Shown here: positions 45,422-62,362 of the stretch, in pieces | Layout of the letters: each line of letters starts with the position of its first letter | How positions within the stretch are numbered: the stretch's first letter is position 1 | NCBI RefSeq assembly: GCF_000472965.1 | Contig: NZ_AXAU01000004.1 | Coordinates: 199,414 to 263,413 of the forward strand | DNA: 64,000 nt | Direction of reading: 5' to 3' | Source of the DNA: Bradyrhizobium murdochi | GTDB taxonomy: Bacteria > Pseudomonadota > Alphaproteobacteria > Rhizobiales > Xanthobacteraceae | Position numbers and translations under genes: made by a program | The notes under the pieces: generated by a model | Databases searched by the model: none | The model's input: only the letters and a program-made list of their open reading frames with translations | Told to the model about the DNA's origin: nothing

Positions 45422-45451
45422 CTCCCTCTCCCCGTTCACGGGGAGAGGGAG
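45422..45451. repeat. 13-bp-stem hairpin, core of the CCCTCTCCCC repeat family
   Basis: CTCCCTCTCCCCG, loop TTCA, CGGGGAGAGGGAG: a perfect 13-bp inverted repeat 14 bp downstream of the msrA stop. The core matches the end hairpins of the elements at 51433-51872 and 62198-62362. It may also end msrA transcription, but no T-run follows. Confidence 0.8.
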
Positions 45452-50284: not shown

Positions 50285-51403
50285 ATGAAGGTCACCGTCG
50301 AACGCGCGCAACTGCTGAAATCGCTGGGTCACGTCCATCGCGTGGTCGAGCGCCGCAATACCATCCCGATCCTCGGCAATGTGCTGGTCCGCGCCGAAAA
50401 CGCCAGGCTGTCGCTGAAGGCGACGGACCTCGATCTCGAGGTGACCGAAACGCTGGCGGCGGAGACCGGAACCGCCGGCTCCACCACCGTGCCGGCGCAT
50501 ATGTTCTATGACATCGTCCGCAAACTGCCCGACGGCGCGCAGATCGTGCTGGAGGCCGACGGCGACCGCTCGGTAATGGCCATCCGCGCCGGCCGCTCGC
50601 GCTTCACCCTGCAGACCCTGCCCGAAAGCGATTTCCCCGATCTCGCCGCCGGCGACATGACGCATTCGTTCTCGCTCACGGCTGCCGACGTCAAGCGCCT
50701 GATCGACCGTACGCAGTTTGCGATCTCGACCGAAGAGACCCGCTATTACCTCAACGGCATCTACCTGCACACGGCCGGCAGCGCCAAGGCCACGACGCTG
50801 CGCGGGGTTGCGACTGACGGCCATCGGCTGGCGCAGATCGATCTGGCGCTGCCCTCCGGCGCCACCGGCATGCCCGGCGTGATCGTGCCGCGCAAGACGG
50901 TGGGCGAGGTGCTGCGGCTGATCGAGGACAATGAAGCCGAAGTCAAAATCGAACTGTCGCAGGGCAAAATCCGCTTCACCCTCGGCAATGTCGTGCTGAC
51001 CTCAAAGCTGATCGATGGAACCTTCCCGGATTATGGCCGCGTCATCCCGCAGAACAACGACAAGGAACTGATCGTCGACAAGAAGGATTTCGAGGCGGCG
51101 GTAGATCGCGTCTCGACAATTTCGAGCGAGCGCGGCCGTGCCGTGAAGCTGGCGCTGTCCGTCGGCAAACTCGTGCTGTCGGTGACCAATCCGGATTCCG
51201 GCAGCGCCACCGAAGAGCTCGAAGTCGAATACGCCTCCGACGCGCTCGATATCGGCTTCAACTCGCGCTACCTGCTCGACATCGCCGCTCAGATCGAAGG
51301 CGAAGTCGCCGTCCTCCGCCTCGCCGACCCCGGCTCGCCGACCCTGGTGCAGGATAAGGACAACAAGGGCGCACTCTACGTGCTGATGCCGATGCGGGTG
51401 TGA
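50285..51403 (+). CDS. dnaN: DNA polymerase III beta subunit (sliding clamp)
   Basis: 372 residues with the three clamp repeats. It starts MKVTVERAQLLKSLGHVHRVVERRNTIPILGNVLVRAEN, contains FTLQTLPESDFPDL, RYYLNGIYLHT, GVATDGHRLAQIDL and ends GALYVLMPMRV, the classic clamp C-terminus. It forms the ring that tethers polymerase III to DNA. The ATG at 50285 matches known N-termini. Downstream, where recF normally follows directly, a DUF559 element is inserted; the DUF559 frame can start at a GTG overlapping the dnaN TGA. Confidence 0.98.
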   Translation: MKVTVERAQLLKSLGHVHRVVERRNTIPILGNVLVRAENARLSLKATDLDLEVTETLAAETGTAGSTTVPAHMFYDIVRKLPDGAQIVLEADGDRSVMAIRAGRSRFTLQTLPESDFPDLAAGDMTHSFSLTAADVKRLIDRTQFAISTEETRYYLNGIYLHTAGSAKATTLRGVATDGHRLAQIDLALPSGATGMPGVIVPRKTVGEVLRLIEDNEAEVKIELSQGKIRFTLGNVVLTSKLIDGTFPDYGRVIPQNNDKELIVDKKDFEAAVDRVSTISSERGRAVKLALSVGKLVLSVTNPDSGSATEELEVEYASDALDIGFNSRYLLDIAAQIEGEVAVLRLADPGSPTLVQDKDNKGALYVLMPMRV

Positions 51404-51891
51404 CTGCGCCTCGTGAAACGGACACCGACCTTCCCTCTCCCCTTGTGGGAGAGGGTGGCGCCGAACAAAGTTCGGCGACGGGTGAGGGGTTCGCGCCGCA
51501 TACACCAAGCCATAGGTCTGTTGCCAAGCGCATCCGCAGCTTCGCCAAGAAGATGCGTCATGAGCCCACCGATGCGGAATTAGCTATTTGGCGACTGCTT
51601 CGCGACCGGCGCCTCGCACGCTTCAAATTTCGACGGCAAGTTCCGTTCGGAAACTATATTCTCGATTTTGTTTGTTTCGAGAAGCGGCTGGTCATCGAAG
51701 TCGATGGAAGTCAGCACGTATCATCGACGCGTGACGAAGCGAGGGAAGCGGTGTTGATCGCTGAAGGATTTCGAATTGCGCGCTACTGGAACAATGACGT
51801 GCTGCAACACCCCTCTGCCGTGCTGGAGGACTCACTTCATGAGGCGCCACCCTCTCCCACAAGGGGAGAGGGTAAGAAAGGCCGACGCTAA
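51400..51891 (+). CDS. DUF559 endonuclease-domain protein inside an inverted-repeat element
   Basis: 163 codons from a GTG at 51400 that overlaps the dnaN stop (GTGA). The DUF559 core (about residues 50-145) reads MRHEPTDAELAIWRLLRDRRLARFKFRRQVPFGNYILDFVCFEKRLVIEVDGSQH. It keeps the Asp (YILDF) and Glu-x-Asp (IEVDG) of the VSR/PD-(D/E)XK-like nuclease fold. Residues 11-19 (LPSPLVGEG) and 151-159 (PSPTRGEGK) are translations of the flanking repeat arms. The real protein may therefore start at the ATG at 51553 (112 residues). It probably nicks or cleaves DNA; this is inferred from the fold. The product and any role in mobility are untested. recF follows 6 bp after the stop. Confidence 0.8.
   Translation: MTAPRETDTDLPSPLVGEGGAEQSSATGEGFAPHTPSHRSVAKRIRSFAKKMRHEPTDAELAIWRLLRDRRLARFKFRRQVPFGNYILDFVCFEKRLVIEVDGSQHVSSTRDEAREAVLIAEGFRIARYWNNDVLQHPSAVLEDSLHEAPPSPTRGEGKKGRR
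51433..51872. mobile_element. Palindromic-end element carrying the DUF559 gene
   Basis: A 440-bp unit bounded by perfect 30-bp inverted repeats (51433-51462 and 51843-51872). Each arm folds into its own hairpin (CCCTCTCCC / GGGAGAGGG, 9-bp stem). Inside the left end a second hairpin (CGCCGAAC-aaa-GTTCGGCG, 51459-51477) is followed by CGGGTGAGGGGT (51479-51490). The unit lies between dnaN and recF, normally adjacent. No target-site duplication was recognised. Mobility is inferred from the inverted repeats, the nuclease cargo and a related unit at 62198. Confidence 0.6.
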
Positions 51892-62197: not shown

Positions 62198-62362
62198 CAC
62201 CCTCTCCCCTTGAGAGGGTGGATCAATCGCGCGGAAAGCGCGATTGAGACGGGTGAGGGGTCCCTCTCCGCGGGTGAACCTCTCGCATTTGTATTCGCGG
62301 ATCGAACCCCTCATCCGGCGAACTACGTCCGCCACCTTCTCCCACAAGGGGAGAAGGGAAGG
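62198..62362. mobile_element. Non-coding palindromic element related to the DUF559 element
   Basis: Left end: hairpin CACCCTCTC-ccctt-GAGAGGGTG (62198-62220), second hairpin TCAATCGCGC-ggaaa-GCGCGATTGA (62223-62247), then CGGGTGAGGGGT (62250-62261). Right end in inverted order: ACCCCTCATCCG (62306-62317) and a hairpin CCTTCTCC / GGAGAAGG. The end architecture matches the left end of the 51433-51872 element, but there is no coding frame, as in a MITE-like derivative. Confidence 0.6.

Follow-up and report, generated by a model that had tools for sequence, protein, structure and literature searches.

A short non-coding element of Bradyrhizobium murdochi as a near-certain gene-less member of a DUF559-linked repeat family with triplex-type ends

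What kind of sequence is the short non-coding element near 62 kb of the window (the whole 64-kb stretch of Bradyrhizobium murdochi DNA analysed here), and which enzyme might serve its ends? The initial annotation had seen at its left end the pieces that also form the left end of a DUF559 unit near 51 kb, and had proposed that the 62-kb copy is a non-autonomous derivative that lacks a gene. All shared left-end pieces are present at both places and in the same order. An inverted right end exists in the 62-kb copy as well (62306-62357, with CCTTCTCC in place of CCCTCTCC), giving it the terminal inverted repeats that are a feature of MITEs. The proposed kinship of the two units also holds among orthologs: two orthologous DUF559 units (L173 and L175) have a right end of the 62-kb type, CCCCTCATCCGGCGCTTCGCGCCACCTTCTCCCACAAGGGGAGAAGG, and a similar right end occurs without DUF559 at L205. 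That the 62-kb element belongs, as a member without a gene, to a DUF559-linked repeat family with triplex-type ends is in our view near certain. A search of its interior for a trace of DUF559 gave none (best score 18), its 45 bp being too short to decide whether they are a deletion remnant. Among known RNA families, the gathering score was reached within the window by a tRNA alone. The features of both units are listed in Table 1; dnaN, recF and the other neighbour gene names are our assumption, based on the sequence.

Table 1. Features of the DUF559 unit near 51 kb and of the non-coding element near 62 kb (window positions)
Feature	Position	Strand	Remark
DUF559 unit, dnaN-recF intergenic stretch	51432..51873	+	
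51-kb left hairpin 1	51433..51455	+	
51-kb left hairpin 2	51458..51477	+	8 bp
51-kb left third strand	51479..51490	+	
DUF559 domain (PF04480)	51529..51837	+	in ORF 51400-51891
51-kb right end, inner part	51810..51846	-	degenerate; intact third strand of relatives missing
51-kb right hairpin 1	51850..51872	-	same letters encode protein tail PPSPTRGEG
Whole 62-kb non-coding element	62199..62359	.	DNA fold z -6.7; between 3' ends of two convergent reading frames
62-kb left hairpin 1	62200..62218	+	CCCTCTCCCCTTGAGAGGG; pyrimidine/purine stem; usual form 4 bases longer
62-kb left hairpin 2	62222..62247	+	free sequence; 10 bp stem
62-kb left third strand	62250..62261	+	CGGGTGAGGGGT; mirror, G-rich
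62-kb interior	62262..62305	.	without DUF559 trace
62-kb right third strand	62306..62318	-	ACCCCTCATCCGG on +
62-kb right hairpin 2	62319..62331	-	
62-kb right hairpin 1	62335..62357	-	CCTTCTCCCACAAGGGGAGAAGG on +

The ends of both units follow one order: a hairpin with a pyrimidine/purine stem (hairpin 1), a hairpin of free sequence (hairpin 2) and a G-rich strand that mirrors hairpin 1. With its letters GGGTGAGGGG, the third segment mirrors the purine strand, GGGAGAGGG, and therefore hairpin 1 and the third segment together make up an intrastrand-triplex motif. A hairpin stem with a mirrored third strand, the defining trait of BoxC, PIT and intrastrand triplex repeats, is thus what the window ends display. 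Since the 10-mer CCCTCTCCCC on its own is only mildly enriched in the window (10 matches with at most 1 mismatch vs 4.6 expected; 1 of 100 shuffles reaches 10), the ordered layout was tested. The detector, designed after the elements had been seen, combines a pyrimidine 8-mer, a loop, the complementary purine 8-mer, a spacer of up to 40 nt and a mirrored G-rich 8-mer. In the window it returned four ends only (51432+, 51812-, 62199+ and 62309-), which all face inward and belong to the two units, and it returned none in any of 30 dinucleotide shuffles; the 51812- end was detected only through its degenerate third strand. A lone hairpin, CCCTCTCCCC..GGGGAGAGGG, stands at 45424-45449 without a third strand and resembles solo remnants found at both sites in other species.

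Beyond the window, the left-end pattern CCCTCTCCCCN{4,20}GGGTGG has 13 matches in the 7.95-Mb genome and its reversed control has 0. The 51-kb unit accounts for two matches with its two ends; the remaining 11 are non-coding, and each of them runs in full through left end, interior and right end, so that the genome-wide scan yields ordered units and not the loose 12-mers that would have spoken against such an element. Copies that have these ends and no gene are thus found scattered over the genome. Two further end types, taken from other DUF559 units of this genome, gave 18 and 16 matches (some at DUF559 loci themselves), with 0 in the reversed control. Five of the six PF04480 genes of the genome lie between inverted ends, each with a sequence of its own, as judged by reading and alignment; given the flanks alone, the detector finds both sides for 3 of these 5 units, and it finds the right end of the 51-kb unit when given the whole stretch. 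No inverted ends were seen at the sixth gene, which lies in a 402-codon frame. In 91 loci that had not been fetched for DUF559, 63 inward pairs of ends were counted vs 9 outward pairs; 59 of the inward pairs enclose less than 150 bp and 4 enclose 379 bp with DUF559 in all four, figures that are no independent census, as many pairs are orthologs of one site and the four DUF559 pairs come from loci picked by an end of this family. Copy number is weakly higher where a 51-kb-type unit is present (median 9 vs 4, one-sided p 0.036, phylogeny not controlled).

The 51-kb unit has inward ends of one family around a PF04480 gene: ORF 51400-51891 matches this profile (1.2e-34), the sole family above its cut-off. 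A Y1/HUH transposase, the hallmark of a REPIN/RAYT coding unit, was not found in it, and the profile of the Vsr mismatch endonuclease (TIGR00632) scored below its cut-off (16.8 bits vs 97.85). An alignment of 22 DUF559 proteins contains 12 invariant columns (E, W, Q, D, F, E, D, G, D, R, R, N). The predicted structure of the DUF559 protein (pLDDT 77.5) matches 3hrl (Z 15.1), I-Bth0305I (Z 11.2), Vsr (Z 9.8) and, at lower scores, Hjc and TnsA, in a match list from which the absence of a family excludes nothing. While 3hrl is itself a DUF559 protein, the next-best match is the catalytic domain of the homing endonuclease I-Bth0305I, and the model has the Vsr-like catalytic fold that is typical of EDxHD homing endonucleases. 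The available part of a study of Caulobacter names VsrA, a DUF559 protein, as responsible for SOS induction in a methylase mutant (PMC12907096), so the family appears able to affect DNA in vivo. The right end of the 51-kb unit is shortened, the dnaN-recF intergenic stretch measuring 494 bp vs 539 in L160 and L161; two near relatives exceed the unit by about 45 bp at 51810-51891. With the intact right third strand gone and the reading frame crossing the right hairpin, the protein probably has an altered tail.

Flanks of DUF559 genes were then compared across bacteria, with an inward end counted if it lay within 350 bp of the gene. In the discovery set, 46 of 63 loci had inward ends on both sides; the figure was 48 of 77 in a named set drawn separately and 14 of 21 in a phylum sample. 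The named set, which comprises the top 80 of at least 581, leans to close relatives of the query and has some records that may share species with the discovery set. Across the discovery, named and phylum sets, at least one side had an inward end at 59, 70 and 20 loci, and neither side had one at 4, 7 and 1, respectively; left out of the three sets were 2 of 65 and 3 of 80 loci with no flank and 1 of 22 of odd length. Nine named loci fall outside the Proteobacteria (Nitrospirae, Chloroflexi, Planctomycetota, Omnitrophota, Methylomirabilota and Spirochaetes; mostly MAGs), and all nine have at least one inward end, seven of them on both sides. Far flanks (>600 bp away) served as a control and gave 0.008-0.024 ends per flank and strand, a value that the true intergenic background exceeds, perhaps severalfold, because the far stretches are mostly coding. 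At GIY-YIG genes of the same genus, the detector found an end on either side in 0 of 29 cases (1 of 30 left out). Wrong-way ends occur near DUF559 on 39 of 126 discovery, 65 of 154 named and 23 of 42 phylum-sample flanks, and are raised there because arrays of ends are frequent. Inward triplex-type ends enclose DUF559 genes far beyond background.

Some units depart from the common form. At L077, DUF559 lies within an AT-rich stretch and between long inverted ends, AATCCCCCTTT..AAAGGGGG, that the detector missed; counts may therefore be low for genomes with ends of this type. Two DUF559 units of one genome (L225 and L226) have hairpin 1 loops that are themselves paired, and they differ in hairpin 2 (ACCAGCCAAAGGCTGGT and ACCATGCGCAGCATGGT).

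The ends also match the unit to which they belong. In five genomes, 21 of 26 units have a left end that scores higher against the right end of the same unit than against any other (mean 63.7 vs 29.6), the 26 being drawn from the stronger of the 38 PF04480 matches listed (5/6, 8/10, 5/7, 4/8 and 4/7 per genome). Among paralogs of the same genome, protein similarity goes with end similarity (rho 0.41, 56 non-independent pairs). As both comparisons are made within genomes, shared host ancestry does not explain the pairing. Particular end sequences tend to accompany particular DUF559 lineages, and since the pairing is unit-specific, DUF559 likely acts on its own ends. An earlier left/right test (64 of 65 loci) was discarded: its null was unusable (99th percentile 485), the mismatched pairs having included orthologous loci.

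Between the conserved strands, hairpin 2 retains its pairing (8 bp vs 10 bp) while its sequence differs, a pattern that the initial annotation had ascribed to selection on structure, as expected if an enzyme recognises hairpin ends. Hairpin 2 was scored by counts of arm pairing, since MAFFT would misalign it. Segments between hairpin 1 and the third strand pair over at least 5 bp in 65 of 69 distinct cases, vs 46% of chimaeras and 17% of shuffles. With one segment kept per 5' arm, 24 arms are paired to 0.91, vs 0.53 when 3' arms are re-dealt; in a second family, 9 arms are paired to 1.00 vs 0.60, and in each family the observed pairing was reached by 0 of 2000 re-deals. The retention of pairing across differing sequences is thereby borne out in both families. 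Selection as its sole cause is not accepted, because template-switch (quasipalindrome) mutation fits too. Quasipalindrome correction is a mutation mechanism in which one arm is copied onto the other, and it would keep the pairing with neither selection nor recognition by an enzyme. Many stems are perfect (12 of 24 and 9 of 9 outer arms) and changed wholesale, as such copying would leave them, and the commonest loop, GCGAAGC (26 of 69), which forms an unusually stable DNA mini-hairpin, is likewise in its favour. The place of hairpin 2, on the other hand, is fixed between the second and third strand, and template switching has no bearing on the DUF559 link; we hold it to be a rather doubtful account of the pairing, and one that is compatible with the explanation of the units favoured below.

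How have the two sites come to hold these units? Of the 30 loci of the genus that best match the 62-kb site, counting our own, 29 have at least one end by the detector and 23 have both, and the site is therefore old; at L085, L086 and L088-L090, the ends are of other families by reading. Twenty further loci were fetched for their split match. Here, L141 holds a single hairpin, L139 one short hairpin in 57 bp, and loci that lack the copy altogether, which the initial annotation had recommended looking for, were found in L140 and L144, with 9 and 11 bp at the site and no element. At six loci from six species (L145-L149 and L152), a GTAG-type repeat, GTAGCCCGGATGGAGCG..CGCTCCATCCGGGCTAC, replaces the element by reading; we take it to be of the GTAG-tagged REP class from its looks. 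Between dnaN and recF, DUF559 is present in 30 of the 30 loci that best match a query including the gene and in none of 20 further loci. Of the latter, L194 has a hairpin by itself, L189-L193 and L199 have a left end that is joined to a further repeat, and L195 has a GIY-YIG gene between inverted ends of a different class (Pfam PF01541, 8.6e-16). The GIY-YIG protein string recurs in L200, L202, L203, L206 and L207 and is absent from L198; L196, L197, L201 and L208 hold a non-coding form of this unit by reading, L204 not being readable. Given such varied content across species, both sites are hot spots of gain, exchange and loss.

GIY-YIG genes between inverted hairpin ends of the GTCATTGCCGGGCTTGACCCGGCAATCCA or GTCGTCCCTGCGAACGCAGGGACCCATA type were also seen in L409-L411, L413, L415, L418, L419 and L423. 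With its hairpin ends and apparent non-coding forms, the GIY-YIG gene is possibly a second nuclease-and-repeat system of the same kind. In different species, L081 (62-kb site) and L205 (51-kb site) carry an extra hairpin of the GAGCGAAGCTC type inside hairpin 1.

Two copies of the own genome are polymorphic among relatives. One (L012) is missing from G269, present as a single hairpin in G359 and full in G302 and G001; the other (L001) is absent in G001, a remnant in G053 and full in G302. As the copies are full in other genomes, loss is likelier than gain at both. Neither an insertion event nor a target duplication was seen at these two copies, both of which are better explained by loss; in the search for empty sites across the genus, four of seven loci were not readable across both flanks.

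On balance, we favour the reading that the 62-kb element is a non-autonomous member of a family with coding DUF559 units, the folded ends of which the DUF559 nuclease would serve. Each unit end is an intrastrand-triplex motif built of hairpin 1, an optional hairpin 2 as spacer and a mirroring G-rich third strand, the two ends facing each other. The DUF559 protein, a small nuclease of predicted Vsr/EDxHD type, may bind its own folded ends, probably while they are single-stranded at replication or transcription, and may nick or cut there. Repair or re-insertion could then spread, exchange or delete copies, with non-coding copies served in trans. Such a scheme would account for end swaps, hairpin 2 swaps, solo-hairpin remnants and the different families at one site. 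Mobilisation of triplex-ended units by DUF559 is plausible. More tentatively still, we put forward as a possibility that falls short of our preferred reading that these units represent a new class of bacterial mobile element. In this class DUF559, as a Vsr/EDxHD-type nuclease that stands alone, would mobilise units with intrastrand-triplex hairpins at their ends, and no known transposase would take part; each nuclease lineage would have its own end code, and the BoxC/PIT/triplex repeats of hundreds of genomes would be the non-autonomous forms.

The E. coli genomes bear on what else could have produced the arrangement. Here ycjD, the DUF559 gene, lies between sapF and fabI, and a BoxC-type repeat downstream of it, a 43-mer, is of triplex type by reading. 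Around ycjD of MG1655, the detector reported one wrong-way end, to the right of the gene, and neither flank gave an inward one. In strain KE47, an inward end that is degenerate can be read. E. coli is therefore a weak example of the enclosed layout. The 43-base repeat occurs in 5375 of 5426 E. coli genomes (median 17 places) and the ycjD query is covered to ≥80% in 3362 of 5426; the repeat thus outlives the gene. A clean insertion as the source of ycjD presence and absence was rejected, since three strains without ycjD have an efflux operon beside fabI; ycjD is reported, in the accessible part of PMC12817139, where the eef operon is absent. A genome that is 89% complete (G016) has 10 ends and no DUF559. 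DUF559 genes like the 51-kb one are present in 33 of 72,556 plasmid records and 1 of 50,697 phage records; in contrast to many mobile genes, they are rare there. Together with the lack of an observed insertion, the weak excess in copy number, the loci with an inward end on neither side and the frequent wrong-way ends, these observations count against the preferred reading.

Repeats without the gene, as in G016 and E. coli, would suit an alternative in which the repeats owe nothing to DUF559 and were spread by a different enzyme or through accidents of replication, with DUF559 as a guest of homing type that took up its place between repeat copies and cuts the triplex repeat. That the best fold match after the DUF559 protein 3hrl is a homing endonuclease, I-Bth0305I, points the same way. 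We nevertheless judge this unlikely, as within genomes the end sequence goes with the DUF559 unit, both in the own-pair comparison and among paralogs. Less probable again is a structure at convergent gene ends that benefits the host, such as a bidirectional terminator or mRNA-end hairpins, with DUF559 incidental. The position of the 62-kb site between convergent frames and the persistence of at least one end, from different families, in 29 of the 30 best-matching loci would fit it; yet PIT/BoxC repeats showed neither promoter nor terminator activity in earlier work, according to the available text of PMC4666352, the site is empty in L140 and L144 and reduced to one short hairpin in L139, and the DUF559 link is left unexplained. 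A chance likeness of G/C-rich hairpins is virtually impossible and is refuted by the counts, for the merely about twofold excess of the single 10-mer stands against four detector ends vs none in 30 shuffles and against reversed-pattern controls with 0 matches throughout.

The preferred reading, of a DUF559 nuclease that serves the folded ends of its family, gives these repeats a context. A nuclease that lies between matching copies, lineage by lineage, is a candidate maker and maintainer of the long-unexplained BoxC-type repeats. If true, this would suggest a job for a domain of unknown function, DUF559, and a structural rule for enzyme-recognised folded DNA, namely a free hairpin 2 at a fixed place. 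The idea is directly testable because these DUF559 proteins, at about 110-160 residues, are easy to purify.

Several known systems resemble the units in part. MITEs are short, non-coding sequences with inverted ends that they have in common with a coding unit, as is the 62-kb element, which differs in having no transposase of a known class; no target duplication was seen at the two polymorphic copies read. REPIN/RAYT systems consist of small palindromes in inverted pairs, include a coding unit flanked by the same palindromes and persist for long. The present units are alike in all three respects, whereas their enzyme is a PD-(D/E)XK/Vsr-like nuclease and not an HUH Y1 transposase. The GTAG/CGTC tag at the palindrome foot, which the available text of PMC3733652 gives as a REPIN/RAYT feature, was not found by reading at the foot of the 51-kb, 62-kb and own-genome ends. 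With the EDxHD homing endonuclease I-Bth0305I, the DUF559 model shares the predicted fold of the catalytic domain (Foldseek 2.2e-4, Z 11.2); unlike I-Bth0305I, DUF559 consists of one small domain, lacks the DNA-binding extension reported for that enzyme and, unlike EDxHD homing endonucleases, it is found between hairpin ends at unrelated sites with no intron seen. The 51-kb protein is a DUF559 protein like YcjD of E. coli and VsrA of Caulobacter, for which the sources, as far as available, describe no mobility role; unlike the 51-kb unit, ycjD of MG1655 has no detectable inward ends.

Closest of all are the BoxC repeats of E. coli, known since the 1990s, rediscovered as PIT elements and as the intrastrand triplex motif TM-ECO, and present in >260 genomes, with 23 triplex-motif copies in MG1655 (Holder et al. 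2015, PMC4666352, available in part). According to the accessible text of that study, triplex repeats are not associated with plasmids, phages or transposons, and neither a mobility gene nor remnants of a transposase or integrase were found in their vicinity. Among open-licence PMC papers, as far as these were available, none was found that links DUF559 to these repeats. Like BoxC/PIT/TM-ECO, the present ends join a pyrimidine hairpin to a mirrored G-rich third strand and are intergenic, multicopy and also arranged as inverted pairs. The triplex search of that study (ITxF) allowed loops of 1-6 nt; the spacer of the window ends, at 18-30 nt, exceeds this because hairpin 2 occupies the stretch that separates the second strand from the third. 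Unlike BoxC/PIT/TM-ECO as described in the available part of PMC4666352, the ends reported here are linked to a nuclease gene.
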